Shown here: positions 12,459-36,158 of the stretch, in pieces
Numbering within the stretch: position 1 is the stretch's first letter
Layout: each line of letters starts with the position of its first letter
Origin: Woeseiaceae bacterium
GTDB taxonomy: Bacteria > Pseudomonadota > Gammaproteobacteria > Steroidobacterales > Woeseiaceae
Reading direction: 5' to 3'
Length of the DNA: 64,000 nt
Assembly (NCBI GenBank): GCA_021773055.1
Contig: JAJFKV010000012.1
Span: 1 to 64,000, forward strand
Notes under the pieces: model-generated
Told to the model about the DNA's origin: nothing
The model's database searches: none
What the model saw: only the letters and a program-made list of their open reading frames with translations
Made by a program: the position numbers and the translations under genes

Positions 12459-13451
12459 TCAAGTGTCTTCTCTGAAAGCAACACTGATGTAGGCGATGAT
12501 CGCGTCTATTTCGGTGTCGCTGAGAACGTGTCGCCACGCAGGCATGGATGTGTCGATTTTGCCGGACTTGATGATCTCCCGCAGCGCATCGGGCGTCGCC
12601 GTAAGCACAAAGCTGTCTGCTGTGAAATCGCGTGGTTTTGGATTAAGAAAGCTACCGATCCAGTTTTGACCGCTGCCGTCCGGGGCATGGCAAAACGCGC
12701 AGTTTTCCGCATACAGGATAAGCCCCACCGATTCTTCTTCTGTCATGCCCTCCGGTATGACTTGTATCTCGTGGCGTGCGTATGGCGAGGCGGCACTAAT
12801 CGCGTCCAATGGTGGACTTCGATGTGAAAAATGTTTGCGAGGAAACGACACGGCTCGGGTCTCCCAAATGGCTTCGCCGCCATTGGAGTTTGGCTGGTCA
12901 TGGCAGCTGACGCAGGCCGTTGTATACAAGCGCCTACCCACGCGTTGCCCAGGCGAGAGCTCCGACCACGAAGTGTCGAGTGCGATGCTGCCATCGATAA
13001 AAGGATATGCAGCGCGGTATTTTTCGTGATCCGGCCAGCCGTTTTCCGGAGAATGATATTTTTGGTCGGCTGCGGAGTTGCCGAAAAAGGATGCGCGTAT
13101 GTAGCCGCCGACGGCAGAAATTTCGACATCCGTCAGGACCGACGAAAAACCAACCATGGCCGTGCCCGGATGTCCGTCACGAATGGTCTTAAACATACGC
13201 TCGGCGGGTAGCGTCGTCGAAGTCGCCGCGGTGAAATCACGAGGTTTTGGACTTAGGTAGGTACTTGCCAGCGTCTCGGCATTACCTGAATAGCCGTGAC
13301 ACTGGTAACAATAGAAACGATAGACGGACTCACCATCCGTCGGGTTTTCGGCGGCCAAAACGGGCCATGTCCATAACAAAACAGCAACGAGCAATACGCT
13401 GTAAATGCTGCAATGTTGCGGTATAGAAGTCGTTTTCACTGGGCTACTCAA
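12459..13451 (-). CDS. Exported trihaem c-type cytochrome
   Basis: A 330-residue periplasmic cytochrome with a signal peptide ending near PVLAAE (residue 34) and three class-I-like haem modules, each with one CxxCH: CYQCH (48-52), CVSCH (mid-protein) and CAFCH (near 250). The first and third modules share a PRDFT segment and a Met-containing loop before a terminal helix, typical of His/Met mono-haem domains of the cbb3/CytC type. It resembles the dihaem protein at 16804-17589, which also has PRDFT. It is divergent from the Sel1-cytochrome-propeller operon and probably exchanges electrons in the periplasm. Confidence 0.88.
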   Translation of the reverse strand: MSSPVKTTSIPQHCSIYSVLLVAVLLWTWPVLAAENPTDGESVYRFYCYQCHGYSGNAETLASTYLSPKPRDFTAATSTTLPAERMFKTIRDGHPGTAMVGFSSVLTDVEISAVGGYIRASFFGNSAADQKYHSPENGWPDHEKYRAAYPFIDGSIALDTSWSELSPGQRVGRRLYTTACVSCHDQPNSNGGEAIWETRAVSFPRKHFSHRSPPLDAISAASPYARHEIQVIPEGMTEEESVGLILYAENCAFCHAPDGSGQNWIGSFLNPKPRDFTADSFVLTATPDALREIIKSGKIDTSMPAWRHVLSDTEIDAIIAYISVAFREDT

Positions 13452-13608
13452 TTACCCGGTCGTCAAAAGTGTTGTGAATTCTAGACGTTTGAGTCTGTTC
13501 ATTCGAGTTTGTCGTTGCAATCATGGATACTTCGGAAAACCGCGATGGTGGGTACTCTGCGAGATGTACATTATTGCCGCGGCCTGACTGTATGAGGACT
13601 ACTGCCTT

Positions 13609-14226
13609 ATGTACAAACCAAGAACTGATGACATTTTCCGTCTCGGCGCACTGATGAGTTGCGTTATGCTGGTGCTTGCGACGGCAATTGCGGCGGAACC
13701 AGATGATGATCTACAGGCAGGTCTGGACGCCTACATCAGCGGTGACCTGCTCACTGCAATGGTCAGGTTCAGGTCGGCTGCAGAAGCCGGGTCCGCAGAA
13801 GCACAATCGCGACTCGCATGGATTCTGGATCAGTCAGAGGAGAATGAGGCAGCGGTTTCACTGTATCGCCAGTCGGCCGAGCAGGGTCATGCGGCGGGCG
13901 AGAATGGCCTGGCTGAGATGTACGCGAAAGGTGAAGGTGTCGAAAAAGATGCAGAAACCGCGCTGCTGTGGTTTACGAAAGCGGCAGAAAACGGCCATCT
14001 ACCAGCGCTTCGGATATTAATCTCGGCTTACGAGAATGGCGAGCTCGGACTTTCACCAGATGAGGCCCAGACAGGCCGTTGGCTACTGCGTGCGGCTGAA
14101 GTTGGGGATCGAGCGTCGATGATGCGCCTCGCCAATGTCTATCGAACCGGTGGACTGGGGATCGACATTAACGAACAATTGGCCATTCGATGGGAAAAAC
14201 AACTCGCAGAGCCAGAGACCGAATAA
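13609..14226 (+). CDS. Exported Sel1-repeat protein
   Basis: A 205-residue protein with a signal peptide (cleavage near AIAAE, residue 28) followed by Sel1-like helical repeats, for example GLAEMYAKGEGVEKDAETAL and the related ANVYRTGGLGIDINEQLA unit. Such repeats form protein-binding solenoids. Its stop is directly followed by the ATG of a monohaem cytochrome and then two propeller proteins, so it probably scaffolds that group in the periplasm. No catalytic motif is seen. Confidence 0.82.
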   Translation: MYKPRTDDIFRLGALMSCVMLVLATAIAAEPDDDLQAGLDAYISGDLLTAMVRFRSAAEAGSAEAQSRLAWILDQSEENEAAVSLYRQSAEQGHAAGENGLAEMYAKGEGVEKDAETALLWFTKAAENGHLPALRILISAYENGELGLSPDEAQTGRWLLRAAEVGDRASMMRLANVYRTGGLGIDINEQLAIRWEKQLAEPETE

Positions 14227-14526
14227 ATGAAGAATCGGCTAATACTCGTTGTTGCAATGTCGCTCGTCATGGCCGACGCCACGATCGCAGGGGACTATTT
14301 CAACGGCAAAAAAGTATACGCAATGAACTGCGTTTCCTGTCACGGCAGCAACGGACGCTCGATGGACCCGAGTGTGCCGAGTTTCGCCGACGGTGATGCA
14401 TTGTTCCGGCCGGATCAGGATTTGTACGAGCAAGTCCGCAGTGGATCGGGCACCATGCCGGCCTTTCGAGGTGTCCTGAGCGATGCCGAAATTCGGGATG
14501 TAATCACCTACATCCGATCACTTTAG
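14227..14526 (+). CDS. Small monohaem cytochrome c
   Basis: A 99-residue protein with a signal peptide ending near ATIAG and a single class I haem site, CVSCH, near residues 37-41. The C-terminal half has a Met-bearing segment (GTMPAFRGVLSD) that probably gives the sixth haem ligand, followed by the YIRSL helix. It starts at the base after the Sel1 gene's stop and ends 3 bases before the first propeller gene, so all are one transcript. It likely shuttles electrons to or from a partner bound by the neighbouring propeller lipoproteins; partners are inferred. Confidence 0.9.
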   Translation: MKNRLILVVAMSLVMADATIAGDYFNGKKVYAMNCVSCHGSNGRSMDPSVPSFADGDALFRPDQDLYEQVRSGSGTMPAFRGVLSDAEIRDVITYIRSL

Positions 14527-14529
14527 TTC

Positions 14530-15627
14530 ATGAATATGCAGATTCGAATAATCATCGCGGGCGTCATGCTGGTGCTGCTGTCCGCATGCAGCAAGCCAGA
14601 GGACGTCGCGCCACCAGTCGTAGTCGATAGTTTCAATGTTGGCGCTAATTCCTATGTAAGATCGCTCGCAATCGATGCCGCGACGAACAGCTTGTGGGTC
14701 GGCACATCGGGCGGCGCGATGGAGATCGACCTCGATTCGCACCTGATGCTCAATACATTCACACGCAAAGACGGTCTTGCTAATGAATACGTGTTCGGTA
14801 TCGGCGTTGATAGCGACGGCTACAAGTGGTTTGGTACCAACGCCGGCGGAGCGTCGCGATATAAAGATGGCAGCTGGCAGGTATTTTTCCCAATGCACGG
14901 GCTTGCGGATTACTGGATTTATTCATTCGCAGAGCAAGACGAAAAAATTTACTGGATCGGTACCTGGGCGGGGGCGAATCGCGTTGACCTTCGGACGATG
15001 CAGATAACAACGGTCAAAGATGAGCTGATCAATGAATGGGTTTATGGGTTGTCAGTCGATTCAAAAAACCGTGTGTGGTTCGGTACTGAGGGCGGGATTT
15101 CGATGCTCGATGGCGAGTCCTGGACACACTGGACGCATGAAGATGGCCTCGGTGGGCCCAATAAAAAGAACCTGCCCGCCAGTGCAAACACCGGACTTGG
15201 AACACGCGACCGACATGACTTGAGCGTAATGGTCGGTGGTGATGCCAGCTATAACCCGAACTACGTGTTCGCAACGCTTGCAGACCATGACGATACTATT
15301 TGGGCAGGAACATGGGGCGGTGGCGTTAGTGCATTTGATGGCCGCAAATGGCGCAGCTACACAGCCGCTGACGGGCTGGCGGGGAACGTTATCTATGCTA
15401 TTGCCCAAGGCCCCGACCGGGCTTACTGGTTGGGTACCAACAATGGCCTGAGTAGATTCGATGGTGAGACTTTCATCAACTACACAGTGGCTGATGGTCT
15501 GCTGGGCGCCGATGTCTACGCTATCGTCGTAACGAAAGAAAACGAGATATGGGCCGGAACCCGCGGTGGTGTTGTGCGGCTTGCGGGCAACCCGAACACC
15601 AGTGAAACAAGACAAGAAGTGCAATGA
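14530..15627 (+). CDS. Propeller-repeat lipoprotein (two-component-regulator-propeller type)
   Basis: A 365-residue lipoprotein with lipobox LLSAC (Cys20). The rest is a series of beta-propeller blades of the regulator-propeller (Reg_prop) type, each with the pattern LWVGTSGG or IWAGTWGGG followed by a turn and a DGLAGN-like loop. These repeats usually form the sensor part of hybrid two-component systems, but here there is no kinase or DNA-binding domain. It overlaps the next gene, a paralogue, by four bases (ATGA). It may be a structural or binding partner of the cytochromes around it; the function is unknown. Confidence 0.8.
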   Translation: MNMQIRIIIAGVMLVLLSACSKPEDVAPPVVVDSFNVGANSYVRSLAIDAATNSLWVGTSGGAMEIDLDSHLMLNTFTRKDGLANEYVFGIGVDSDGYKWFGTNAGGASRYKDGSWQVFFPMHGLADYWIYSFAEQDEKIYWIGTWAGANRVDLRTMQITTVKDELINEWVYGLSVDSKNRVWFGTEGGISMLDGESWTHWTHEDGLGGPNKKNLPASANTGLGTRDRHDLSVMVGGDASYNPNYVFATLADHDDTIWAGTWGGGVSAFDGRKWRSYTAADGLAGNVIYAIAQGPDRAYWLGTNNGLSRFDGETFINYTVADGLLGADVYAIVVTKENEIWAGTRGGVVRLAGNPNTSETRQEVQ

Positions 15628-16754
15628 TGAAAAAGGTAGTTTTGTTATTGGTGGCTATCACAATCGCGGTCGTGGCCTACCTTTTTGAGACACAACAGGA
15701 CGCACCCGACACTGTCTCCGAAATGCCGGACCCAAATAGCCACTTCACGCACTTTCGTGTTGGACAGCGAAATGTGAAGGCCATCCTGTTGGAAGGTGAT
15801 GTGACATGGGTCGGCACATCGGGTGGAATTATTCGCTACGACACGCAGGCGGACTCCTACACATTATTCGATACCGCTACGGGCTTGTTGGCGAACGGCA
15901 TTTTTCATCTTAGCAAGCTGGACGGAAGACTTGTCGCCGGCACTTATGGCGGCGGATTGTCTATTCTGAATGACGATGGCGAAACCTGGAAAACCTACAA
16001 TATTCCGGACGGCCTCGGCGACGGCTTCATCTATGACGTGCTCAAAATGCAGAACGGAGATGTCTGGATAGCGACCTGGTCGGGCGTCAATCGAATTCGA
16101 GGCGGTAATCTGGATGATCGTTCCAAATGGGATCTTTTCACCGTAGAAAATACCAATGGCGGATTGCCGAACGACTGGGTATACGCTTTGCAGGCAGGCA
16201 GGGATGGCGTCGTCTGGATGGCGACGGAAGGCGGTTTGTCACGCTTTGACGACGGCGAATGGACCAGTTGGAATCATGACAGCGGATTGGGCGCTCCCTA
16301 TGAACTCGTCCGTGAGGAAATCGAGTTCCTGACGGATCCCGCTGAATATTCTGACCATCATGCCCGGCAGAAGGTAGAAATGGGTCTCGAAGACGTCGAT
16401 ATCGCCTACAACCCGAATTACATCGTGGCGTTACTTGAGGATCGTCAAGGCAACGTGTGGGCCGGAACCTGGGGCGGTGGCTTGTCGCATTTTGATGGCA
16501 GGGAATGGATAAATTATACGGTTGCGGATGGCCTTCCGGGAAATCACGTGTTCATGTTGCACGAGGATCCGGACGGTCTTGTCTGGATCGGAACAAGCAA
16601 TGGTCTCGCTCGTTTTGAGAACGGCAACTTCAAACATTACTCGACGGCCGACGGGCTGTTCGCTAACCAGGTCTTCGCAATGGGGACGGCAGCGGATGGC
16701 AGTAAGTGGGTGGGAAGTTACGGCGGCGTTGCGAGGATCGCGAACCTGCCGTAG
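15624..16754 (+). CDS. Second propeller-repeat protein, paralogue of the preceding gene
   Basis: A 376-residue protein with an N-terminal hydrophobic segment (LLLVAITIAVVAYLF, about 5-20) that could be an uncleaved anchor, followed by Reg_prop-type blades with VWVGTSGG, VWMATEGGLSRF and VWAGTWGGGLSHF motifs. It shares the same central insert (a YNPNYIVALLED region) with the previous protein's YNPNYVFATLAD, so the two arose by duplication. No signalling domain is attached. It ends the operon begun at 13609 and converges with the dihaem cytochrome at 16804. Confidence 0.8.
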   Translation: MMKKVVLLLVAITIAVVAYLFETQQDAPDTVSEMPDPNSHFTHFRVGQRNVKAILLEGDVTWVGTSGGIIRYDTQADSYTLFDTATGLLANGIFHLSKLDGRLVAGTYGGGLSILNDDGETWKTYNIPDGLGDGFIYDVLKMQNGDVWIATWSGVNRIRGGNLDDRSKWDLFTVENTNGGLPNDWVYALQAGRDGVVWMATEGGLSRFDDGEWTSWNHDSGLGAPYELVREEIEFLTDPAEYSDHHARQKVEMGLEDVDIAYNPNYIVALLEDRQGNVWAGTWGGGLSHFDGREWINYTVADGLPGNHVFMLHEDPDGLVWIGTSNGLARFENGNFKHYSTADGLFANQVFAMGTAADGSKWVGSYGGVARIANLP

Positions 16755-16803: not shown

Positions 16804-17589
16804 TCATTCGTCCTTTGTCGTCCGGATAAATTCCTGGTAGACAAATTCTGCGACGTCCGCAATTTCCTGATCCGACAATACGAACCTCCAGGCAGGCATT
16901 TCCTTGCCGACTACGCCATCGCGGACACCGGCGAACAATCGCGGCCGATTCATGATTTGCCGCGTTGCGGAGTCCAGAAAATTCCGTGGTTTCGGGAAAA
17001 TAAAGTATGCACGTGGGCCATCGCCATCACCCAGCCCGCCATGACATTCGATGCAATTAGTGAAATAGATCGATCGTCCGTTTTCGAATTTTCCCTGCAG
17101 ATCATTCGGAAATGATTGTGCATGGTATTCATCGGGGCGGTGTTCAGTACCGGGGGTAACTGCTGAATGCGACTGCGGCAACGGCGCGTGTCCGGATACG
17201 TGCGGCGCCATGAATCGTGCCCGTACATAATCAACGATTGCTGCGACCTGGGTAGCGTTCAGCTGTGAACCAAATCCGGGCATTGGTGTTCCCGGTCGGC
17301 CATAGGTGACTGACGCAATCATGCGCTCGCGATCGAGTTCTTGTCGCGCAACATCGGTCGTGAAATCGCGGGGTGGTGTTGATAATGACTGCTGTCCCCA
17401 GACAGCACCTTTGCCATCATCACCGTGACAAACGCTGCACGATTCCTGATAAATCTTGATCGTTGCGTCTATTTGTTCGGTCGTTTTCTCATTCGCGATC
17501 GATACGGCTGTGCCCAGCAAGAACGCGAAATTAATCGACATAACCAGTTGTTTACGTATTTGCCGAAATATCTGGCTATCAATGTTCAA
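16804..17589 (-). CDS. Exported dihaem c-type cytochrome
   Basis: A 261-residue protein with two class-I-like haem modules, CSVCH near 53 and CIECH near 160, each followed by a Met loop (GTPMPGFGSQL and KEMPAWRFVLSD). The first module has the PRDFT segment also seen in the trihaem cytochrome at 12459-13451, pointing to a shared origin. A hydrophobic signal-like segment follows a basic start; an internal Met 16 codons in (17541) is an alternative start giving a shorter signal peptide. It is divergent from the NHL lipoprotein at 17706, with 116 bases between them for promoters. Likely a periplasmic electron carrier. Confidence 0.86.
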   Translation of the reverse strand: MNIDSQIFRQIRKQLVMSINFAFLLGTAVSIANEKTTEQIDATIKIYQESCSVCHGDDGKGAVWGQQSLSTPPRDFTTDVARQELDRERMIASVTYGRPGTPMPGFGSQLNATQVAAIVDYVRARFMAPHVSGHAPLPQSHSAVTPGTEHRPDEYHAQSFPNDLQGKFENGRSIYFTNCIECHGGLGDGDGPRAYFIFPKPRNFLDSATRQIMNRPRLFAGVRDGVVGKEMPAWRFVLSDQEIADVAEFVYQEFIRTTKDE

Positions 17590-17705: not shown

Positions 17706-18797
17706 ATGTTGAAGAAATATCTGATTCCCATCCTGTCTAGCCTCATTTTTGCCGGCTGTGCTCCTGTCGTCGAGAATCGCAATGATCCATCTACAGTTGA
17801 TATCGTTTTTCCACCACCGCCGCAACCCGCCAGGTTCTTTTATGAGCGAACGCTTACGGGCAGCGCCGATGTCGAAGAGGTCGACCGGGAAACCCGTTGG
17901 CGCCGAATTTTGACGGGTGAAACAGGCACGTCATCCGGTCTTTCGAAGCCATTTGATGTCGAAGTTTGCGAAGGACGTGTCTACGTCAGTGACACCGTTA
18001 GCCGGTTGGTCACAGTATTCGATGTTCCACACAGCCAGTATTATCAGATAGGGGCGACGGAGCCCGGTGGGCTGACCAAACCCCTTGGTCTGGCAACCGA
18101 TGCGGACTGCAATCTGTACGTTGCGGACGGAACAGAGCAGCAGATCGTTGTATTCGACCAAGAGGGTACGTTCCTTCGGGAGATCGGGAGCAAGGACATG
18201 TTTGACCGTTTGACACACGTGGAAGTCGACCCCAACGGAGAAAGAGTTTTTGCGGTAGACACCGGCGGTGTCGGGAGTCAGCGGCACCAGATCCGGGTTT
18301 TGAACGGCGAGACGGGCGAACACCTGTACTATATCGCGCGGCGGGGCCAGGAAGCAGGCGAATTGAATCTGCCCCGCGACATCGCCCTGAACGTCGACGG
18401 CAATCTGTACGTTGTCGACGGTGGCAATTTCCGAGTGCAGGTGTTCACGACCTATGGAGAGTACGTGACACAAATAGGTGGTATTGGTGTGAGGACAGGC
18501 CAGTTCTCGCGGCCCAAAGGCATCGATACGGATTCCTCCGGCAATGTCTATGTTAGCGACGCGGCGTTTGGAAATTTTCAGATCTTCGATGCGTCGGGGC
18601 AGCTGCTTTTGTTTGTCGGAGATCGCTCGGAAGCGCCGGCACCCGCAAAATTCATGTTACCGGCCGGACTGGCAATTGATGAAGACGATCGGGTCTATTT
18701 GGTCGACCAGTTCTTTCGAAAAATCGACGTTTTCAGACCGGCGACGCTCAAACCTAGCGAGGGATATTTTGGCAGTCGTATCGGCAATTCACCATAA
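17706..18797 (+). CDS. NHL-repeat beta-propeller lipoprotein
   Basis: A 363-residue lipoprotein (lipobox FAGC, Cys18). After a short linker it has about six NHL-type blades with recurring patterns such as LSKPFDVEV, YVSDTVSRLVTVFD, LYVVDGGNFRVQVF and VYVSDAAFGNFQIF. NHL propellers bind proteins or surfaces and are not themselves redox-active. Two related lipoproteins lie at 25591-27596 in the same cluster. It precedes a tetrahaem cytochrome by 113 bases containing candidate regulatory repeats. Its localisation to the outer or inner membrane cannot be told. Confidence 0.85.
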   Translation: MLKKYLIPILSSLIFAGCAPVVENRNDPSTVDIVFPPPPQPARFFYERTLTGSADVEEVDRETRWRRILTGETGTSSGLSKPFDVEVCEGRVYVSDTVSRLVTVFDVPHSQYYQIGATEPGGLTKPLGLATDADCNLYVADGTEQQIVVFDQEGTFLREIGSKDMFDRLTHVEVDPNGERVFAVDTGGVGSQRHQIRVLNGETGEHLYYIARRGQEAGELNLPRDIALNVDGNLYVVDGGNFRVQVFTTYGEYVTQIGGIGVRTGQFSRPKGIDTDSSGNVYVSDAAFGNFQIFDASGQLLLFVGDRSEAPAPAKFMLPAGLAIDEDDRVYLVDQFFRKIDVFRPATLKPSEGYFGSRIGNSP

Positions 18798-18862: not shown

Positions 18863-18872
18863 ACCGCTTTGT

Positions 18873-18910: not shown

Positions 18911-19774
18911 ATGATCTTGTCCTCATACAACAATCAACTGGCGCTCAAACTCAAAGGGGCACTCGAAAACGTGATTAAGACAAGAAATTTAGCCGGACTG
19001 ACCGTAGGAACTGCACTTTTTCTGACAAGTATTGGCGCCAATGCGCAGGTTGTCGGAAGTGCCCACGATCTATCCCCGGATACCACCGGCACGGATCAGG
19101 TCTGTGCGTTTTGTCATACACCGCATGGTGCAGCGACAGGTGCAAGCGCCGCTGGCGTTCCTCTGTGGAACAAGACACTACCCAACCCTGCTACCTACAC
19201 GCGGTATTCGACACTCAATACGGCCACGCTCGACGGTGCGGAGACCGAGGTCGGATCCGTCTCGTTGGCCTGCTTGAGTTGCCACGATGGAACTCAGGCG
19301 CGTGATGTCCTGATCAACTCACCCGGCAGTGGCATGACCGGCACCGCACTGGGCGTCGGAGCGATGACGGGTACGCCCGTACCGGTACTAGGTACTGATT
19401 TGACGGATGATCATCCGGTCAGCATTCAGTACGCAGGCGGTGGTTACCTAATTTCTGACCCGGACGGTGTTGGTACGAATGCTGGAGCGCTTGGCGATCC
19501 GGATTTTGCCGCGGCTACGAAAGGACTCGTCAACGCACAACCAAACTGGTGGGTCGATTCTCCGGTCGGTGCGGGAACGCAACGCGAGAAGGTGGATATG
19601 TTGCTGTATGCCCGCAGCGACCCGGCACTTGATGGCGGAGCATTACAACCGTTTGTTGAGTGTGGCAGCTGCCATGACCCGCATAACGCATCAACCGCCG
19701 GTGCTGGATCTGTCGCTTTTTTGAGAATTCAAAATTCGGCAAGCCAGATTTGCACAACCTGTCATACGAAGTAG
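18911..19774 (+). CDS. Exported tetrahaem cytochrome (CHTPHG type)
   Basis: Up to 287 residues with four haem motifs: CAFCH, CLSCH, CGSCH and CTTCH, the last only two residues from the C-terminus. The CAFCHTPHGA and CLSCHDGT blocks, the LGTDLTDDHPVSI segment (with a possible distal His) and CGSCHDPH recur in order in the first third of the undecahaem protein at 27596. GTG 18971, eleven bases after AGGGG, would give a cleaner signal peptide (cleavage near GANAQ) and is an alternative start. Its own promoter-like repeats and a strong downstream terminator suggest it is made separately and in larger amount than the other cytochromes. Confidence 0.88.
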   Translation: MILSSYNNQLALKLKGALENVIKTRNLAGLTVGTALFLTSIGANAQVVGSAHDLSPDTTGTDQVCAFCHTPHGAATGASAAGVPLWNKTLPNPATYTRYSTLNTATLDGAETEVGSVSLACLSCHDGTQARDVLINSPGSGMTGTALGVGAMTGTPVPVLGTDLTDDHPVSIQYAGGGYLISDPDGVGTNAGALGDPDFAAATKGLVNAQPNWWVDSPVGAGTQREKVDMLLYARSDPALDGGALQPFVECGSCHDPHNASTAGAGSVAFLRIQNSASQICTTCHTK

Positions 19775-19827
19775 TACTGGTAGTCCGAATCAGACGAGAC
19801 TGATTTCGAAGTACCGCTTGAATGTGG

Positions 19828-19858
19828 GTCCGGGCGCCAGTGGTTGCCCGGACTTTTT
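19828..19858 (+). terminator. Rho-independent terminator after the tetrahaem gene
   Basis: GTCCGGGC (19828-19835) pairs perfectly with GCCCGGAC (19846-19853) around a 10-base loop, immediately followed by TTTTT. It lies 53 bases after the tetrahaem stop and 33 bases before the parvulin gene, so it separates or attenuates the downstream 16-kb run of genes. Confidence 0.85.
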
Positions 19859-19891
19859 CAATTCTGGGATGCATGATTTTGTGGGGAAGAA

Positions 19892-20881: not shown

Positions 20882-20884
20882 GAA

Positions 20885-22678: not shown

Positions 22679-22707
22679 ATGACATAACAACTTACGATCA
22701 GGTATTC

Positions 22708-23166
22708 ATGAAACAAGATACGGTGAAAGAAAACACACTTGTAGTCGCGATATTTCTTATCGCGATGATTTCAATACTGCTACTGGCGAGTACGCTGAAT
22801 CCTGCTGAAGCTGAATACGGTGACGTAGTCATCAATGAGTATTCGGACGATGCGGGGATGAACCCGGTTGTATTCCCACACTGGTTTCACCGTATTCGGT
22901 TCCGTTGCAAGGTCTGCCACGGCGATCTGGGCTTTGCATTCAAAGCCGGTGGTAATGATATCAATATGGTGAAAATCATCGACGGACAGTATTGTGGTGC
23001 TTGTCACAATGGTGATGTTGCCTGGTCTATAGAAAATTGTGAATTATGCCATTCGGCCAAACCCGGAACGCCGACGCAAATTCATCACAGTACTGTGCAA
23101 CAACTTGTCAACAGGGCTCGCGAAAAGGCCAATGACGCGTCCGACGACAAGGGGACAAGCAAATGA
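22708..23166 (+). CDS. Trihaem c7-like cytochrome A
   Basis: A 152-residue protein with an N-terminal hydrophobic signal or anchor (about 10-28) and three haem sites, CKVCH, CGACH and CELCH. The FPHWFHRIRFRC block supplies His residues that likely serve as distal ligands, as in c7/c3-type cytochromes (cytochrome c7-like family). The closest relative in the window is the protein at 25211, with nearly the same WFHRIRF and CGACHNG blocks. It overlaps the next gene by four bases. Expected to be a periplasmic low-potential electron carrier. Confidence 0.9.
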   Translation: MKQDTVKENTLVVAIFLIAMISILLLASTLNPAEAEYGDVVINEYSDDAGMNPVVFPHWFHRIRFRCKVCHGDLGFAFKAGGNDINMVKIIDGQYCGACHNGDVAWSIENCELCHSAKPGTPTQIHHSTVQQLVNRAREKANDASDDKGTSK

Positions 23167-27596: not shown

Positions 27597-29971
27597 TGGT
27601 GAGCAAATTACAAGCCCTTACCACGTCCGTCGCGACTTTGTCGCTGTTGGGAATTGCTCTTATCGCAGTTGCCCAGGGCGTGAGCGACGTTTCCATGAGC
27701 AAGCACAATCTTTCGGTTGCCGGACCGGGACCTGTGGCGGCCGGCAGTGAAACGGAGGTTTGTGTGTTCTGTCATACGCCGCATGGTGCGACCGCTGCCC
27801 CGGATGCGCCGTTATGGAATCGCGAATTCTCAACGCAAACCTATATTCCCTATACATCGTCGTCGCTGGATGCTGAAACCATCGCGGGACAGTTGCAGCA
27901 ACCGGCTGGCAGCTCCAAGCTTTGCCTGTCATGCCACGACGGATCGATGGCCATTGGCACTGTAAACGTCAGTGGCGGGCAACAGAATGTATCGATAGAT
28001 ATGAACGGTGTTGGCCCTGGCGGCGAGATGCCGGCCGGGTCAGGCACACTATCAGGCTTTACCCGAAATCTTGGTGCAGACCTGACGAATGATCACCCGA
28101 TATCGCTCACCTATGACACATCGCTGGTCAATCTGGATGGCGAGCTTCGCGATCCGGCAGTTGCCGCAGAGATCGGTCTTCGATCGCCCGGAGTTCGGCC
28201 GCAGTTTCCGCTGGAGGCGACCGGGCCGGCGAACGAGCAGCAGTTGCAATGCGCCAGTTGCCACGACCCGCATATCGCAGACCTGGTTGCGGGGCAGCCA
28301 CAAAAGTTCCTGCGTGGAAATCGGCTGCAGCAGGCGACCCCAGGCGCATCGTTCGATGGCAGTACAGATATTGTCTGTTTGGGTTGCCACGAAAAAGAGG
28401 GCTGGAGCGCGTCTGCGCATGCCTCGCCGATATCTGCAGACGAGACTTACCTCGCGGCGGATGCGGTGCAGCGCGAATTTCCCGTAAACACTGCTGTCTG
28501 GCAGGCGTCCTGCCTAAACTGTCACGATACGCATACCGTACACGGCTCCCGTCGTCTGTTGCGCGAAGGCACAGACAGTCTGGCGTCGCCAAAGTCCGGC
28601 GGTGACTCCGCTATTGAAGAAACCTGTAATCAATGTCACAGCGCTTTTCCCGTGGTTGGAAACCCGGCGGGCGAGGTAAAAAATATCGAGTCGGATTTCG
28701 AGCTGGCCGTGAGTATGCCAATTACGTCGATCGATCAGCAAACTGGTACCGAAACGCACGATATAGTCGATGCTGATTTTGTCGAAAGCAGGGCGATACT
28801 GGGGCGCGGCAGTTCATTGAATCGACATGCAGAATGCACTGACTGCCATAATCCACACAGAGTCATAAAGAACGCGTTGTTCAATGGCCTGGGCACACCC
28901 GACGAAAGCGCACATGATCACACGACGGGGCACAGCAATTTAGCCTCAGGTGCGCTCACGGGAGCCTGGGGCGTCGAACCGTTTTACGGCAGTAACACAT
29001 TCTTGTCCTTGCCGATTTCCTATGAAATCAAGCGAGGCATGGGTATCAGCACGGCGGTCACGGCGAGCCACGTGACGCGCGAATACCAGGTTTGTCTCAA
29101 GTGCCATTCAGACTATGGTTATGACGATGACGGCATTTATCCGCTCGGCACGAGGCCGAACCTCGGAGACTCTGGCGGTGGTACACCCGCCAGCACGAAT
29201 AACGTCCAGCAATATACGAATCAGGCGATGGAGTTCCAGGCACCTCTGGGCGATCAGGGCGAGCCGGGTGCCAATCATCGTTCGTGGCATCCGGTGATGG
29301 ACGCGACGGGCCGGTCCGCCGGCGTAAGAAATATGAGTTCCTCGACAAGTTTGTTTCTTGCTCCGTGGAACGGAACGTCCATTGGAACGCAGACAATGAT
29401 TTGCTCGGATTGCCACGGCACACAGACCGCTACCGGCACGGTGGTCCCAACAGGCGACAATCCCTGGGGACCGCATGGGTCGAACATCGATTTCTTGCTG
29501 AAGGGCGCATGGTCGGCGTCGACGGGCAACAATAATTCGGGGCTTTGCTTTCGTTGTCACAGCCACACGAACTATGCGACCGAGCAAAATGAGGGCGATC
29601 AAAGCAATTTTGAAAGCGGCTTTGGCGGTCCCAAGGACAGCAATTTGCACGCTTTTCATGCGAAGCGAATAGGCGGAAATCTGCGATGCAGCTGGTGCCA
29701 TGCGGCGGTACCGCACGGCTGGAAGAACAAAGCATTGCTGGTCAATCTGAACGATGTCGGGCCCGAAGCCGGCGTCGCGCCGGGTACCGAAGTGAATATC
29801 ACCAGCGATAACCAGACCTACGACCAGGGTCCGTATTACATGAACGCCAAATTAAAGGTCTTAACCTGGCGTAGTAGTGGCACCTGGCGAGAGCAGGACT
29901 GTGGTTCCGCCAGTGGGCAATTGGGGTCTGGCAAAGACTGGATGGGCGACGTGTGCAGTAACCCGCCATGA
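27596..29971 (+). CDS. Exported undecahaem c-type cytochrome
   Basis: A 791-residue protein with a signal peptide (cleavage near AVAQG, about residue 27) and eleven CxxCH sites in order: CVFCH, CLSCH, CASCH, CLGCH, CLNCH, CNQCH, CTDCH, CLKCH, CSDCH, CFRCH, CSWCH. The first part (CVFCHTPHGA, CLSCHDG, LGADLTNDHPISL, CASCHDPH) matches the whole tetrahaem protein of 18911; the remaining seven haems are an extension with few close parallels that I recognise. No membrane anchor or lipobox is seen. Its size and haem number suit the terminal outer or extracellular member of an electron conduit. It ends in a four-base overlap with the ResB-like gene. Confidence 0.9.
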   Translation: MVSKLQALTTSVATLSLLGIALIAVAQGVSDVSMSKHNLSVAGPGPVAAGSETEVCVFCHTPHGATAAPDAPLWNREFSTQTYIPYTSSSLDAETIAGQLQQPAGSSKLCLSCHDGSMAIGTVNVSGGQQNVSIDMNGVGPGGEMPAGSGTLSGFTRNLGADLTNDHPISLTYDTSLVNLDGELRDPAVAAEIGLRSPGVRPQFPLEATGPANEQQLQCASCHDPHIADLVAGQPQKFLRGNRLQQATPGASFDGSTDIVCLGCHEKEGWSASAHASPISADETYLAADAVQREFPVNTAVWQASCLNCHDTHTVHGSRRLLREGTDSLASPKSGGDSAIEETCNQCHSAFPVVGNPAGEVKNIESDFELAVSMPITSIDQQTGTETHDIVDADFVESRAILGRGSSLNRHAECTDCHNPHRVIKNALFNGLGTPDESAHDHTTGHSNLASGALTGAWGVEPFYGSNTFLSLPISYEIKRGMGISTAVTASHVTREYQVCLKCHSDYGYDDDGIYPLGTRPNLGDSGGGTPASTNNVQQYTNQAMEFQAPLGDQGEPGANHRSWHPVMDATGRSAGVRNMSSSTSLFLAPWNGTSIGTQTMICSDCHGTQTATGTVVPTGDNPWGPHGSNIDFLLKGAWSASTGNNNSGLCFRCHSHTNYATEQNEGDQSNFESGFGGPKDSNLHAFHAKRIGGNLRCSWCHAAVPHGWKNKALLVNLNDVGPEAGVAPGTEVNITSDNQTYDQGPYYMNAKLKVLTWRSSGTWREQDCGSASGQLGSGKDWMGDVCSNPP

Positions 29972-30984
29972 TGATGTTGATAAAAAAACTGGCATCGTTG
30001 CGACTCACGCTGGTGGGTATGGCGGTATTGGGCGTGCTCGCTCTGGCAGGTTCACGAAGCTCGACCATTGATATCGGACTCACGGCGATACCGCTGTGTT
30101 TGCTATCACTCAATCTGCTTGCGGCGATCCTAAGCAACAGGAGTTTTCGTACGCAGAGTGGGTTGCTGATATTCCATGTCGGTCTGCTGTTTGTATTTGC
30201 GCTGATTGGCATATCGGTTCTGACGCGTTTCGATGGTCACGTTGAGGTCGTTCAGGGTGTCGCATTTGACGCAGAGGCAGTGGAAGTGGCCAGGCGAGGC
30301 TGGCTGCATCGCGGCGACTTACAGCGAGTGCAATTCACCCAGGGCGATATACAGGTCGACTATCTGCCGGGTCTGGTCAGGCAGGCAACACGAAGCACGA
30401 TTACGTATCCGATTGACGCGGAGACCATCGGTGCTGCGACGATCGGTGACAAACGCGGTGCTGAATTCAACGGTTATCGGTTTCTTGCCACCTTCAACAA
30501 AGGGTTCGCATTGGTTTTGCGCTGGCAGGACTACGCCGGGAATATTGAATATGGCTCGATACATTTCCCCTCATTCCCGCTAAATGACTGGCAACAGGTG
30601 ACCGAGTGGCGGACCCCAGGCGGGCAAAGTATCGAATTCGAAATCGAGTTCGCCGAGCCAATTGTACAAGCGGAAAGTCACTGGGTATTGCAACGGCCAT
30701 ACGTCCCGTACGTGGTTCATGTCAGTGGCGAAAAACTGTCGCCGACCATCTTGGGAAGCGGTGACGATATAGAGGTGAGCGGTGGGTCAATTCGCATTGA
30801 GGACATGCGTTTATGGATGGCCTATCGCGTGGACTATTACCCTTACTTACCGTGGGTGTTCGTTGCGGCAATATTGGCCATCGCCGGTCTGGCGATGCAA
30901 TTTGGCAGTCGTTACCTGCCTAAACGCAAATCTGCCTCGGCCACGGTAGTGGAGGCCGCGCATGCATCTGTCGCCGGCAACTGA
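29968..30984 (+). CDS. ResB/CcsB-like cytochrome c biogenesis protein
   Basis: A 338-residue membrane protein with hydrophobic segments near 10-28, 32-50 and 58-78, a large periplasmic region, and a last segment near 295-315. This is the layout of ResB/Ccs1, half of the System II haem-delivery and attachment machine. It overlaps the CcsA-like gene by 23 bases. It lies immediately behind the undecahaem gene, so it is probably a dedicated maturation factor. ResB proteins diverge strongly, hence the assignment leans partly on the adjacent CcsA-like gene. Three successive ATG codons begin the frame. Confidence 0.78.
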   Translation: MMMLIKKLASLRLTLVGMAVLGVLALAGSRSSTIDIGLTAIPLCLLSLNLLAAILSNRSFRTQSGLLIFHVGLLFVFALIGISVLTRFDGHVEVVQGVAFDAEAVEVARRGWLHRGDLQRVQFTQGDIQVDYLPGLVRQATRSTITYPIDAETIGAATIGDKRGAEFNGYRFLATFNKGFALVLRWQDYAGNIEYGSIHFPSFPLNDWQQVTEWRTPGGQSIEFEIEFAEPIVQAESHWVLQRPYVPYVVHVSGEKLSPTILGSGDDIEVSGGSIRIEDMRLWMAYRVDYYPYLPWVFVAAILAIAGLAMQFGSRYLPKRKSASATVVEAAHASVAGN

Positions 30985-31786
30985 ACAGCAGTTCGTCTCG
31001 CTTGCGGTTGCGCTGCTCGCGCTGGCGACGGTTGTGCAAATGCCATTGATCACCGGTCGCCGTGCCCCACAATGGCCAACCTTTGCCACGCTCGGCTCGA
31101 CCATTCTGATCCTGGCCGTGGCCATAGCCGGGCGATGGTTGCGAGAATCGCAAGGACCGTTCCTGACGCTCTACGATGTCTTGCTGAGTAATGTCTTTAG
31201 TCTGACGTTGTTATTCACCCTGGTCATCTGGCGCGTGCCGGTGACACGCATTGCGGCGTTACTGGCATGTCCAATCTTATTGTTGTTGGGTCTCTGGTTA
31301 GCCAATGTTTCAGCGATAGCAGTACCTTTGCCTGCGACCTTTGATAATTACTGGCTCTGGCTACATGTTGTGAGCGGCAAGTTTTTCCTTGGCATCTGCA
31401 TGACGAGTGCGTGCGCGGCCGGTGTGCTGCTCTTGTCCTCGTGGCGTAGGGGTGGTGAGCTAGCCCGTGTTTCGGACACGACGAATCTGGAAGAAGCCGT
31501 TTGGGCGCTGTTTTTCCTGGCATTCATATTTCACAGTCTTATGTTGCTCGCCGGATCGGTTTGGGCACACAGCGCATGGGGCCGCTATTGGTCCTGGGAT
31601 CCATTGGAGACCTGGACGCTAATCACCTGGCTGATGATTGGCGGCATCCTGCACGCCCGGACGACCTTCGCCAACATGCCGAAGTGGCTCGCTCAGGCGT
31701 CAATCGTGATCGTATTCGTGATCGCGTTCATGACCTTTTTTGGCGTGCCGTTTATTAGTCAGGCTCCGCACAAGGGGGTCATGTGA
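30962..31786 (+). CDS. CcsA/ResC-like haem-handling protein
   Basis: A 274-residue polytopic membrane protein with about eight hydrophobic segments and the tryptophan-rich WWD motif (WGRYWSWDPLETWTLITWL, near 205-222) that binds haem in CcsA, CcmC and CcmF. Conserved His residues flank it (HVVSGK near 125-130, FHSLML near 187). With the preceding ResB-like protein it forms System II cytochrome c maturation. It overlaps both neighbours. The presence of System II inside a multihaem cluster of a gammaproteobacterium-like genome, where Ccm System I is usual, is notable. Confidence 0.88.
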   Translation: MHLSPATEQQFVSLAVALLALATVVQMPLITGRRAPQWPTFATLGSTILILAVAIAGRWLRESQGPFLTLYDVLLSNVFSLTLLFTLVIWRVPVTRIAALLACPILLLLGLWLANVSAIAVPLPATFDNYWLWLHVVSGKFFLGICMTSACAAGVLLLSSWRRGGELARVSDTTNLEEAVWALFFLAFIFHSLMLLAGSVWAHSAWGRYWSWDPLETWTLITWLMIGGILHARTTFANMPKWLAQASIVIVFVIAFMTFFGVPFISQAPHKGVM

Positions 31787-32286
31787 ACAAGCGGATGGAT
31801 AAGCGACGAGTCGTCATTCCAGTCATGTTATTGGCTACCGTAGTGCTCGGGGCAGTCTTGCAGAAGTTCCCCAGCAACGACTCACGCCCACAGGAACCAA
31901 ATTTTCAACAGCAATTCCAGCATGCTGTCGCTTTGTTGGAACAACGTCAATTCGAATCCGCCGTGCAAGAGTTTGACGGTCTTATGAAACTCGCTCCGGC
32001 GCTACCGGAAGCGCACGTCAATATGGGATACGCGCTGCTTGGCCTCGAAAAATTCAAAGCAGCGCAGGAATATTTTGGCAGTGCCACAACAATACAGCCA
32101 CTGCAAAGCAATGCTTACTACGGTCTGGCCGTTGCCTCGGAAGGGCTCGGCGAGATACGGAAAGCGGTCATGGCAATGCGTACCTTTGTTCACATTGCGG
32201 ATCGAAACAACCCGTATCGTCGCAAAGCGAATGCGGCGATCCGGGAATGGGAGGCCGCACTGTTGGCACAGAAAAATGACGAATAA
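31783..32286 (+). CDS. Membrane-anchored TPR protein
   Basis: A 167-residue protein from GTG 31783 (GTGA overlap). One N-terminal membrane segment (about 9-27) is followed by three TPR-like helix pairs: FESAVQEFDGLMKLAPALPE, AHVNMGYALLGLEKFKAAQE and YYGLAVASEGLGEIRKAVM. It resembles the TPR part of CcmH/NrfG-type proteins, which present apocytochromes for haem attachment, so it may be part of the maturation unit encoded just upstream. That link is inference from position. Confidence 0.78.
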   Translation: MNKRMDKRRVVIPVMLLATVVLGAVLQKFPSNDSRPQEPNFQQQFQHAVALLEQRQFESAVQEFDGLMKLAPALPEAHVNMGYALLGLEKFKAAQEYFGSATTIQPLQSNAYYGLAVASEGLGEIRKAVMAMRTFVHIADRNNPYRRKANAAIREWEAALLAQKNDE

Positions 32287-33139
32287 GTGGGGGCAAGGGC
32301 AAGGGCTCTTAATCATCGTTCTGGCGTTATGCGGAGCGGCTGTTGAAGCGGCAGATTGCGTCGCAGAGGACACCCGAAAGTCTCCACAGATCGCACAGAA
32401 GATTGCCCTGTTAGCCCGCTTGATGGAAGACTCGGAACCACTGCGAAGGGCCGAGCAGAGTGGCGATGCCGATGCTCTGGAGGCGATTGCGAAAGCGCGC
32501 CAGTCATTATCCGATGCCAGGGACGCGTTGGCAGAGGGATGCGTGTCCGATGCCTCAGCGATGTCATCACAAGGACTCAAATTCGCGACTACGGCGTTTC
32601 GGAATTCAGGATCTTCCGGCCGACAAGCACGTGAAAAATACGACGCTGCAATTCAACAGGCGACATCGTTCATGCTGGCGCTTGATTCGCAACCCGCGGA
32701 ATTGCATGGATTGAGCAGTGAAGATCTGGTCGGCATGGAGCGGCAAATGGAACGTGCTGAGTCTCTGGCCTCGGACGGCGCATTTCAGGACGCGTTGCAG
32801 TTGTTGTTACCGGTTAACGATCGGCTGCAACGCCGGTTGCTCGAGATACTCAATAACAAGACCGTCTTTTACGCCAGGAATTTCGCGACCTACGCCGATG
32901 AATATCGTTACCTGGAAGAACAGTACGACGGATATTTGTTGCTTCTTCAGTCCGGTGAGAAGACAGCTTCCTACAGCGCGCGGAATCGAGTGGAGTCGTT
33001 GCTGGCGAAAGCAGCAGCGTTGCGCGCGGCGGCGGACAAGCAGGCTCAGACAGAGGATTGGCAGGGGGCATTAGCCAGCATGCAGGCCGCACTCAAGAAC
33101 TGTGAACAGGCGATACGCGCGACCGGGTATGCCTACTAA
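32276..33139 (+). CDS. Exported helical protein of unrecognised family (copy 2)
   Basis: A 287-residue protein starting at ATG 32276, overlapping the TPR gene by 11 bases. A signal peptide (cleavage near AVEAAD) precedes long amphipathic helices. ARNFATYADEYRYLEEQYDG and a C-terminal EQAIRATGYAY correspond to ELKFETAEDEYLYELDR and KAIRSAGVYIPG of the 23773 product, identifying a duplicated family inside this cluster. It has two Cys (ADCVAED and EGCVSD) that could pair. No domain is recognised. It lies between maturation genes and the membrane b/c-haem protein. Confidence 0.75.
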   Translation: MTNKWGQGQGLLIIVLALCGAAVEAADCVAEDTRKSPQIAQKIALLARLMEDSEPLRRAEQSGDADALEAIAKARQSLSDARDALAEGCVSDASAMSSQGLKFATTAFRNSGSSGRQAREKYDAAIQQATSFMLALDSQPAELHGLSSEDLVGMERQMERAESLASDGAFQDALQLLLPVNDRLQRRLLEILNNKTVFYARNFATYADEYRYLEEQYDGYLLLLQSGEKTASYSARNRVESLLAKAAALRAAADKQAQTEDWQGALASMQAALKNCEQAIRATGYAY

Positions 33140-33167: not shown

Positions 33168-35426
33168 ATGAATCAGGAAAATCAGGATGTTTTGCACCCG
33201 GACTTCAGGTCGTTATTGACCTGGCTGGTGTCGGGAGTTTTTTGTTATCTGCTGGTTTCCGGTGCGCTGGTCTATTGGCTACCTTTCAGCGTGTACTCAC
33301 AATATTCGGTGATCGTACATTCGTTGACGGGAGTTTTGTCATTGCTGCCTGCCAGTTGGATCGTCTACCTGCATTGGCGACGCCGTGATGGTGCGGTCGC
33401 GGGTCGCGTAGCGGTACTTGCAAAGATCGCGGTTGCTTTGCTCATCATATCTGCCACCAGCGGATTGACCATTGTCCTGCAGTCAATATTCGGGAGTGCG
33501 GTGCAGGATTTCTGGTGGTCAGTGCATCGGTTTTCGGCAGTTGCGTTCGGAAGTGTGCTTTTCATGCACCTGTTGCCGATATTGGCCCGCTACGTAAACA
33601 CTCCTTCAACACCAAGACGGCTCGCACGGAGGTGGTTTTTTGCCGCGGCGATCGCAATTCTCGCGATACCGTTTGCGGCGACGCACTGGCTTTCTGAAGG
33701 TGAAGAAACGGTAACGAAATTTCAGGGATTTACGGATGACTATGACTGGCGCTTCGGTGATGATCGTCCGTTCTGGCCCAGTCGTGCGCAGGTAGCCGAT
33801 AATCCGTGGGGTTTGGAATTGCGCGATAATCTGCAGGATTTATTGAATGACGAGGAGCGCTCGCAATTGCTGGATGCTCTAGCCACCTACAACGAGGGTA
33901 CCGGCGGACCATTAACCCGGCTGAAACTCGCGACAACAGATCTCACACTGGATCCAGATCGCGAACTGACGATGAAGGCTCTCATCGAATCTGCCAGGGA
34001 ATCACTGCGTCAGGGCGGCGCGATCAAGGCCGAGGCCTTGCTGGGATCCGAAACTTGCGGTTCAGGGGGGTGCCACCAGCAAATCTACGACGAGTGGATT
34101 CCAAGCGCCCATGGATTTTCGGCAACGGACGTATTATTTCGTGATGTTCAGGAGGTGCTGGCGGCAAACAGTGGCTCAGCCGACACACGCTCATGCGCCG
34201 GTTGTCACGACCCGGTCGCATTGTTGAGCGGTGCGCGCAGCGGCGGTTCCATTCGCGGTGACGACCTTGTTATGCATGAAGGTAATTCCTGCCTCGTTTG
34301 TCATAGCGTTACAGAGACTGATACTAACGGGAATGGTGGCTATGTCTTGCAGTTACCACAACGATACCTATTTTCTGGCGAGCAAGACTCCGGAGAGTTT
34401 TGGAACAAATTCCTGATTCGGAGTTATCCGCAGCATCACGTAAGCAGTTACAAGCGGCCTTTATACGAGGAGAGTGAATTCTGTGCGGCATGCCATAAAC
34501 AGACGAGTACACCGGGAGCTGATACAGAAATCGGACTGGCGCAGGAACAAAACGAATACGATAGCTGGTTACAGGGCCATTGGTATCATGAGGATGATCC
34601 GGATAAGACTATCGGCTGCCAGGGTTGTCATATGCCGCTGGTCGACAGCAACGACCCCGCAAACGATGGCTCGCATCGCAGCCATCGCACCTTGGGCGGC
34701 AACATGTATATTCCCGTAGCACAGAATCTGCCAGGCGGTGACGAGCAGGCGACCAGGACGGTGCAGTGGTTGCGTGGTGAAATAGAAATACCGGAGATTG
34801 CCGACAGGTGGGCAGAAGGCCCCGTTGTCGCGATGACCATCGTTGCACCAGACGAAATCAGACCCGGCGAACTCATCAACCTCGTACTGGTCTTACACAA
34901 CAACAAGACCGGGCATGATTTTCCGGCGGGACCGCTGGATATCCTGGCAAGCTGGGTGGAAGTGAAAGTTGAAGATAACTTTGGGCGCACGTTGTTGCAT
35001 CTCGGTGATCCGGAGGGTGATAAGCCGACCCTCGATGCGCCAATCGTTTACAAAGCCGATTGGTATGACAAACGCGGGCTCCCGGTTGAGCGGCATAATA
35101 TCTGGGAAGTTGTCGGTGCGAGCTACAAGCGCTCATTACAGAGCAGCGATGCGGATCTTGTCGAAATTCCGTTTCGTTGCCCTGTTATTGCGCGACCAAA
35201 AATGTCGAACTCGGCCAGCGAGCAGGGACCGGGCGAGCGCAAATCGGATATTGTCTTCTCCGTTGATAATCAATCAGTTCGCGAGTTGACTGTAACGGCA
35301 AGGTTGCTCTATCGGAAAGCAGACCCCGAATTTCTCGCGAACATCTATTCGCTGGAATCAAATATCAGTGCCCCCGTTGTTGAACTCAACATGGCAACCC
35401 ACGTTATTAGCATCTCCGAAGATTGA
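33168..35426 (+). CDS. Membrane di-haem b / pentahaem c fusion cytochrome
   Basis: About 752 residues from ATG 33168; in-frame starts at 33129 and 33102 are possible. The N-terminal ~190 residues hold four membrane helices with paired His residues (VHSL/YLHW and SVHR/FMHL) suited to two b haems, as in cytochrome b561-like quinol oxidisers. The periplasmic part carries CGSGGCH (a CX4CH site) and four CxxCH sites: CAGCH, CLVCH, CAACH, CQGCH, with the CHQQIYDEWIPSAH segment of cytochrome c554-like domains. A 220-residue beta-rich C-terminal region follows. It most likely links the quinone pool to the periplasmic cytochromes, by analogy with b/c fusions such as CbcL. Confidence 0.85.
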   Translation: MNQENQDVLHPDFRSLLTWLVSGVFCYLLVSGALVYWLPFSVYSQYSVIVHSLTGVLSLLPASWIVYLHWRRRDGAVAGRVAVLAKIAVALLIISATSGLTIVLQSIFGSAVQDFWWSVHRFSAVAFGSVLFMHLLPILARYVNTPSTPRRLARRWFFAAAIAILAIPFAATHWLSEGEETVTKFQGFTDDYDWRFGDDRPFWPSRAQVADNPWGLELRDNLQDLLNDEERSQLLDALATYNEGTGGPLTRLKLATTDLTLDPDRELTMKALIESARESLRQGGAIKAEALLGSETCGSGGCHQQIYDEWIPSAHGFSATDVLFRDVQEVLAANSGSADTRSCAGCHDPVALLSGARSGGSIRGDDLVMHEGNSCLVCHSVTETDTNGNGGYVLQLPQRYLFSGEQDSGEFWNKFLIRSYPQHHVSSYKRPLYEESEFCAACHKQTSTPGADTEIGLAQEQNEYDSWLQGHWYHEDDPDKTIGCQGCHMPLVDSNDPANDGSHRSHRTLGGNMYIPVAQNLPGGDEQATRTVQWLRGEIEIPEIADRWAEGPVVAMTIVAPDEIRPGELINLVLVLHNNKTGHDFPAGPLDILASWVEVKVEDNFGRTLLHLGDPEGDKPTLDAPIVYKADWYDKRGLPVERHNIWEVVGASYKRSLQSSDADLVEIPFRCPVIARPKMSNSASEQGPGERKSDIVFSVDNQSVRELTVTARLLYRKADPEFLANIYSLESNISAPVVELNMATHVISISED

Positions 35427-35474
35427 TCAACTGCTTCGATTCGGGTGCACGATGAAGTCGAGAGTATCGGGAAA

Positions 35475-36158
35475 ATGGAAATGAACACCGATAGCATGGA
35501 CGTAGTCGCCAAAGTGCAGTCTTTGACGTCGATAGGAGAGATAGCGGAGGATCCTGTGCTATCGCGGTTTCTTAACAGTGGAAATGTGGTCAGCATACCC
35601 GCCGGCAACTTCGTTTTTGAGAAAGACGATACCTGCGATAACTACCTGATCGTTCTCGACGGCGTTGTGCGCGTTCAGTTATCCACTGAAGCCGGGAGAG
35701 AGGCAACGCTTTACCGGGTGCAGCCGGGTGGATCCTGCGCGCTCACAACATCTTGCCTGATCAGCAATGAGCGTTATCCCGCAGAGGCCGTCACTGAGTC
35801 GGCCGTAGTAGCAGTCGTGTTGCCGATTTCCGAGTTCCAGACCGCACTTGACGAATCCCGGCAGTTTCGACGCTTCGTATTTGACGGTTTTGCGGCCCGT
35901 CTGACAGCTATTATTGGGCAAATTCAAAGAATAGCTTTCAGTGCAATTGATGAACGCCTGGCATCCGTACTGCTGGATGGCAGCGATGCTGGTATCTCCT
36001 GCGTTACACATCAGTATCTGGCCGCGGAGCTTGGCACGGCTCGCGAAGTTATCTCAAGGAAATTAAAGCAATTCGAGGCTGAAGGATTAGTCAGGCTGGG
36101 CCGTGGGCGGATCGTTATCGTAGATCGACAAGGTCTGCAATCGCTGGCGTCTACCTAG
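35475..36158 (+). CDS. Crp/Fnr-family transcriptional regulator
   Basis: A 227-residue regulator. The cyclic-nucleotide-binding-like beta-roll (about 30-130) includes NYLIVLDGVVRVQL and a GGSCALTTSCL segment, followed by a long dimer helix and an HTH_Crp domain with TAREVISRKLKQFEAEGLV. It lacks an N-terminal Fnr-type Cys cluster, though Cys residues occur in the sensor domain (DDTC, GGSC, TTSC). GTG 35445 is an alternative start. It directly follows the last cytochrome gene by 48 bases and may control the cluster; a Crp-like dyad lies upstream of the tetrahaem gene. Signal unknown. Confidence 0.87.
   Translation: MEMNTDSMDVVAKVQSLTSIGEIAEDPVLSRFLNSGNVVSIPAGNFVFEKDDTCDNYLIVLDGVVRVQLSTEAGREATLYRVQPGGSCALTTSCLISNERYPAEAVTESAVVAVVLPISEFQTALDESRQFRRFVFDGFAARLTAIIGQIQRIAFSAIDERLASVLLDGSDAGISCVTHQYLAAELGTAREVISRKLKQFEAEGLVRLGRGRIVIVDRQGLQSLAST

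Follow-up and report, generated by a model that had tools for sequence, protein, structure and literature searches.

Gene content of the block

The haem-gene block at positions 12459–36158 raises the question of which electron-transfer system it encodes and whether that system already has a name. Throughout, the window is the whole 64-kb stretch of DNA that was analyzed, of which the block takes up 24 kb. By motif count, 37 CxxCH sites and one CX4CH site are spread over ten genes of the block, in agreement with the tally of a preliminary description of this DNA, and no CxxCH is found in the 24 ORFs (11,303 amino acids) of the rest of the window. Family searches matched parvulin, NHL, Reg_prop, Sel1, and TPR proteins as well as the haem-attachment pair previously named as ResB/CcsA, with ResB above its cut-off and CcsB, like the Crp/Fnr match, below the curated one. 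With TIGR04257 ("nanowire_3heme"), all four c7-type trihaem genes score above the cut-off; they account for every match of the genome above that cut-off, and a fifth match, on contig C50, falls below it. NHL and Reg_prop matches bear out the propellers proposed earlier except for the fifth (25591), which by itself matches no Pfam family at E 0.01. The ORF at 25019 most likely starts from GTG 25211, and that at 33102 from ATG 33168. The genes of the block are as follows.

12459–13451 (−), accessory class-I-type trihaem cytochrome c (3 CxxCH; motif and family)
13609–14226 (+), Sel1-repeat protein (family match)
14227–14526 (+), monohaem cytochrome c (1 CxxCH; motif and family search)
14530–15627 (+), Reg_prop β-propeller with lipobox (family and motif)
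15624–16754 (+), Reg_prop β-propeller (family match)
16804–17589 (−), accessory class-I-type dihaem cytochrome c (2 CxxCH; motif and family)
17706–18797 (+), NHL propeller with lipobox (family and motif)
18911–19774 (+), UetA, tetrahaem filament-type cytochrome of the OmcE family (4 CxxCH and 4 further conserved His)
19892–20881 (+), UetB, parvulin prolyl isomerase (family match)
20885–22678 (+), UetC, outer-membrane β-barrel (predicted model, 28 long strands)
22708–23166 (+), UetD, c7-type trihaem protein (3 CxxCH; TIGR04257)
23163–23756 (+), UetE, c7-type trihaem protein (3 CxxCH; TIGR04257)
23773–24654 (+), UetF by position (no Pfam match at E 0.01)
24651–25214 (+), UetG, c7-type trihaem protein (3 CxxCH; TIGR04257)
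25211–25594 (+), additional c7-type trihaem protein (3 CxxCH; TIGR04257)
25591–26544 (+), UetH by position, propeller-like protein
26541–27596 (+), UetI, NHL propeller with lipobox (family and motif)
27596–29971 (+), UetJ, undecahaem cytochrome (11 CxxCH, the first four haem sites forming an OmcE-like module)
29968–30984 (+), ResB-like haem-attachment protein of Ccs system II (family match above cut-off)
30962–31786 (+), CcsB/CcsA-like haem-attachment protein (family match below curated cut-off)
31783–32286 (+), TPR protein (family match)
32276–33139 (+), relative of the UetF-position protein (adjoins 33168 in G060 too)
33168–35426 (+), membrane cytochrome and candidate for this lineage's quinone link (HX13H in a hydrophobic N-terminal part; CX4CH and 4 CxxCH in the C-terminal part)
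35445–36158 (+), Crp/Fnr-type regulator (family match below curated cut-off)

Directly after the block (36265–42366), the window holds tryptophan 2,3-dioxygenase-, kynureninase-, and aminobenzoyl-CoA-type genes, as named from sequence.

Assignment to the undecahaem electron transfer pathway

As described in passages of two papers (PMC10734462; PMC12575090), the undecahaem electron transfer (Uet) pathway consists of a tetrahaem cytochrome (UetA), an isomerase (UetB), a porin (UetC), trihaem cytochromes (UetDEG), NHL proteins (UetHI), and an undecahaem cytochrome (UetJ); the name was given in the cathode-oxidizing Tenderiales (passages of PMC10734462). Because gene content and order in the window match this published description, the genes from 18911 to 29971 are, judged by sequence, uetA–uetJ in order, together with an extra trihaem gene. 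The arrangement is A-B-C-D-E-(F)-G-(extra trihaem)-H-I-J, where F and H are placed by position only. Compared by description, the likeness to the Uet of Ca. Tenderia electrophaga and the Tenderiales covers the content and order of A–J, from the tetrahaem, parvulin, and barrel genes through the trihaem and NHL genes to the undecahaem gene. The available passages also report Uet from Gallionella and Leptothrix, with UetJ and its porin described in the latter (PMC13386937); in Ca. Tenderia electrophaga, a TPR gene is reported to sit amid the trihaem genes (PMC5371394). Relative to the passages describing Uet, the window has as extras a further trihaem gene, the upstream Reg_prop, class-I cytochrome, and NHL genes, and downstream the ResB/CcsB/TPR genes followed by 33168 and the Crp-type regulator.

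We therefore read the whole block as a Uet locus with lineage-specific additions that encodes a conduit across the outer membrane ending in an OmcE-type filament (probability about 0.75). The Uet system itself is known already; what is added here is a new carrier and a testable filament-anchor hypothesis. The preliminary description had recognized no named system in the gene set and had overlooked what by sequence are OmcE-family modules at 18911 and at the start of 27596. A new, unnamed electron-transfer system is very improbable: of the 35 other Uet genomes searched, G060 alone shares with the window a full-length 33168 beside Uet, which would suit it, but in core gene set and gene order the block is Uet. 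For the core, this identity was ruled out by the match of gene order to the named pathway.

Distribution of Uet-type loci

A locus scan with seven tetrahaem query sequences matched at least 581 stretches, at least 521 of them encoding relatives, and the best 80 were analyzed. Loci with trihaem protein D or E at 150 bits, or the barrel at 40 bits, were classed as Uet-type; 35 of the 80 qualified, and these lean toward window-like loci because the 80 were chosen by likeness to the window UetA. Wherever present, genes A, B, C, D, E, G, I, and J lie on one strand and in conserved order in all 35. The parvulin UetB occurs in 34 of the 35 and in 6 of the 45 other loci, and the UetC barrel in 34 of 35 versus 0 of 45, a difference that is partly by construction. 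UetD is present in 33 of 35; trihaem and barrel counts are partly circular, as both define the class. Homologues of 23773 were found in 23/35 Uet-type loci, of the additional trihaem protein in 15/35, and, as far as the flanks reach, of each accessory class-I-type cytochrome in 19/35. UetJ was matched in a frame of at least 779 amino acids in 34 of the 35 genomes, and G091 has a small OmcE-like match only; 30 of 31 UetJ ORFs carry 11 CxxCH, and the remaining one carries 10. The linked electron route of barrel, carriers, chaperone, and haem-attachment genes proposed in the preliminary description is thus supported, and its linkage recurs in relatives (tested genes in order in 35/35 Uet-type loci).

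By title, the matched loci belong to Gammaproteobacteria, Betaproteobacteria, Magnetococcales, Kiloniellaceae, and Nitrospirae, among others. In L055, a contig whose title reads Candidatus Tenderia sp., genes A-B-C-D-E stand in order, with the UetB frame split in two. In a class-wide sample of 368 genomes (own genome left out), OmcE-type matches occur in 52 and UetA-type matches (E 1e-44 or better) in 34; in at least 26 of these 34, a second match in a frame of at least 540 amino acids follows 7.5–11 kb downstream on the same strand. Among 59 relatives, four have an OmcE-type match, and among these four only G017 has a Uet block (L026, L027). Among named relatives, the one closest to the window UetA (66% over 222 columns) comes from a MAG with the title Woeseiaceae. 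Two UetJ-like copies per genome were noted in G088 (C19, 62488–65109 and 67980–70484) and in G070 (C8 and C270). In Aromatoleum toluolicum (L046), ResB directly follows the NHL gene, and UetJ-like genes lie on other contigs.

Lineage-specific extension of the locus

The block 12459–36158 matches a single contig gene for gene, within that contig's reach (G060:C37, covered by L035, L122, and L115); G060 is a MAG titled Woeseiaceae. Downstream of UetJ in G060, the TPR gene, the 32276 homologue, 33168, and the Crp gene have the same arrangement as in the window. Its 33168 homologue (67%) keeps HX13H, CX4CH, and the four CxxCH; the CX4CH reads CGSGGCH in the window and CGAGGCH in the single close homologue examined (L115). 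G060 is the one genome with full-length 33168 among the 35 other Uet genomes searched (G017 left out). In G081, a weaker homologue (32%) and the Uet genes lie on different contigs, and three further Uet genomes gave short, weak matches. Because of this distribution, 33168 looks, by sequence, like a lineage addition. The "own quinone link" proposed earlier therefore keeps its candidate in this lineage but not as a general part of Uet.

Haem attachment is more widely associated with the locus. Of 15 stretches drawn from 15 of the 35 Uet genomes, 13 have ResB or CcsB after UetJ, and in 10 a TPR homologue scoring at least 97 bits lies downstream of UetJ. A Crp-type homologue was found in 4 of the 35 Uet-type loci, and in the one checked (L036) it lies elsewhere. 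A search for an empty insertion site in relatives gave four stretches with one flank gene, in which the other flank gene was not seen.

The UetC barrel and its relatives

UetC has no Pfam family match at E 0.01 and so no membership in the MtrB_PioB family. Structure prediction gave a barrel model with 28 long strands (pLDDT 90.6), and UetC is predicted to be a large outer-membrane barrel. When the model was searched with Foldseek, MtrB (6r2q_B) had the highest TM-score among the matches listed (0.47/0.44) and ranked 14 by E-value; all TM-scores are below 0.5, and by VIA Z MtrB stands level with TonB receptors.

Other OmcE-type loci encode a protein of ∼675 residues with no similarity to UetC by BLAST at E 1e-4. 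Profile comparison gave a weak probability of 13 with two sequences; with 34 UetC sequences, run against four such proteins from three genomes of one genus, the probability was 96 (E 2.2e-9 over 530 columns). By profile, these four proteins of non-Uet OmcE-type loci appear related to UetC.

Several of the loci scanned (L028, L030, L032, L086, and L092) combine an OmcE subunit, an NHL gene, an ORF of 669–724 residues that shows no window match, a second NHL gene, and a 10- or 11-haem OmcE-headed cytochrome; the L032 block ends at a contig end. The same arrangement, with trihaem genes and an NHL gene ahead of the OmcE subunit, occurs in L102 and L107. The own genome also has a second OmcE-type locus (L025, G000:C30:1–18000, at 748–7365 on the minus strand), with genes for a tetrahaem protein, an NHL protein, a barrel-like protein of 675 residues, another NHL protein, and an 11-haem protein with an OmcE-like head. 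No c7-type trihaem protein was matched within the 18 kb of this locus examined.

Relation of UetA and UetJ to OmcE filaments

UetA is, by sequence homology, a member of the family that builds OmcE "nanowires." The window UetA matches OmcE of Geobacter sulfurreducens (PDB code 7tfs) with E 5.8e-21, and the UetA profile matches it with E 2.9e-44; positions 10–225 of the 225 profile positions align with residues 8–232, i.e. homology extends over the whole chain. UetA also aligns over its length with structure 9yuq. The CxxCH sites and further histidines of OmcE align with those of UetA and of the UetJ head, whereas UetA is longer (287 versus 232 residues). The window UetA has exactly eight histidines, four in CxxCH and four more, each kept in 36–37 of 37 Uet homologues. 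Eight is the number needed for four bis-histidine haems, and the conserved histidines are probably the haem ligands. According to the passages of a review, it takes the adjoining subunit to complete an interfacial haem of OmcE.

The same module stands at the head of UetJ in all 31 ORFs examined. Residues 15–226 of the window UetJ match 7tfs (E 9.5e-21), covering three of the four CxxCH of the head; the region also matches 9yuq, and the eight histidines of the module are kept in 30–31 of 31 UetJ ORFs. A quick tree built from 135 rows separates the UetJ head modules for the most part from the small subunits (12 label changes, minimum 3), which suggests that, as far as the sequences tell, head and small subunit stem from an old duplication. 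Structure prediction of UetJ gave no usable model (pLDDT 37.7).

Among 104 small OmcE-like ORFs, 88 pass all five crude motif tests and 16 fail at least one; nine of the 16 are second copies in Uet loci. In 32 larger ORFs, the first distal-His motif was found in 27, the CxxCHDG motif in 27, and the third-His motif in 30. Nine Uet-type loci (L039, L046, L048, L049, L050, L054, L056, L062, and L068) carry a diverged second OmcE-like tetrahaem gene that starts at 7.3–7.9 kb and lacks some conserved His motifs.

Taken further, UetJ might be the outer-membrane base of an OmcE-type nanowire, with its head as a built-in first subunit held by UetC, and filament and conduit joined in a continuous chain of haems; the similar core of non-Uet loci in several phyla, made up of an OmcE-like subunit, NHL propellers, a large barrel-like protein, and an OmcE-headed multihaem protein and including the second copy in the own genome, might then represent a general docking machine of OmcE-type nanowires. 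We regard this as tentative, at slightly less than even odds. If UetA were instead only a soluble or surface tetrahaem carrier that forms no filament, UetJ would be an ordinary outer-surface terminal cytochrome. Homology alone is no proof of polymerization, and what cytochrome filaments do physiologically is under dispute (PMC11077965). Still, all eight OmcE-aligned histidines are kept, the window UetA has no other histidine, and an OmcE-like module heads UetJ in the 31 ORFs, so that a carrier of this kind seems unlikely.

Comparison with other conduits

MtrCAB, MtoAB, and PioAB share with the block the principle of a barrel with multihaem cytochromes, and the UetC fold is comparable to that of MtrB. 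In contrast to these systems, UetC has no Pfam match at E 0.01, and the block contains no decahaem protein. The own genome has a separate MtrCAB-like locus on contig C50 (L168, G000:C50:32001–52000, at 1941–15407), in which three decahaem proteins, MtrC- and MtrA-like by reading, precede an MtrB_PioB barrel; multihaem proteins with 5 and 11 CxxCH lie nearby. PCC3 of neutrophilic Fe(II) oxidizers likewise combines a porin with multihaem cytochromes and is discussed for electron uptake, but the passages available give it very large extracellular and periplasmic cytochromes, with medians of 34 and 21 haem sites, and a 300-residue inner-membrane protein, whereas the largest cytochrome of the block has 11 sites. 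OetABI of syntrophic sulfate reducers, known here by description in such passages only, also has filament-type cytochrome genes near a porin–cytochrome conduit, but its OetB is described as a lipoprotein cytochrome.

Proposed mechanism and direction of electron flow

In the proposed conduit, UetC would form the large barrel in the outer membrane, and UetD, UetE, UetG, and the fourth c7-type trihaem protein, judged by their family, would carry electrons in the periplasm. UetJ would hand electrons through or onto UetC, and its N-terminal tetrahaem module could serve as the first "subunit" from which UetA polymerizes into an extracellular filament. UetB, the propellers, and ResB/CcsB would assist assembly and haem loading of the parts. 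For this lineage, 33168 is the probable point of electron exchange with quinone. The flow would more likely lead inward, from a mineral, an electrode, or a partner cell to the respiratory chain, and may be reversible.

For Uet in general, inward flow is weakly favored; for the own genome, neither direction is preferred. The RuBisCO family (PF00016) was matched in 33 of 34 UetA-positive genomes of the class sample versus 153 of 334 others (own genome left out; Fisher p about 1e-9 over 17 families, uncorrected for kinship). RuBisCO also occurs in 17 of the 18 genomes whose OmcE-type matches are of another kind, so the association is with OmcE-type genes in general and not special to Uet, and matches in the B. 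subtilis control indicate that PF00016 catches RuBisCO-like proteins as well. With these caveats, the association argues against the same conduit working outward, with metal oxides or other extracellular acceptors being respired and 33168 acting as a quinol oxidase. So do the description of Uet from cathode-oxidizing Tenderiales (passages of PMC10734462), the absence of 33168 from the general Uet locus, and the five COX1-family genes (oxidases or NO reductases) that give this genome terminal reductases of its own. The RuBisCO family was matched in 30 of 37 Uet genomes examined. On the other hand, the own genome, 89% complete and with no PF00016 match, is among the seven without, which suits outward flow, as does its MtrCAB-like locus. 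Passages of a review place OmcE in metal-reducing Geobacter, and those of PMC13264449 report undecahaem cytochromes in the Mn reducer Ca. Dechloromonas occultata. We consider outward flow rather doubtful but a serious possibility.

Implications

For Woeseiaceae, passages of a MAG study describe mtrCAB in sediment members (PMC12175321) and contain no mention of nanowires or OmcE. Nor was a link between Uet and OmcE nanowires met in the literature passages available; the original papers on Uet, OmcE, and archaeal nanowires may make it. With the present assignment, Uet is placed in a probably marine Woeseiaceae bacterium and tied to OmcE nanowires. The passage of electrons from extracellular cytochrome filaments into the cell has been called not well understood (passages of PMC10553843). 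If the proposed role of UetJ is true, a filament module fused to the undecahaem protein of the conduit would be a direct, testable answer to how electrons pass from filament to cell.
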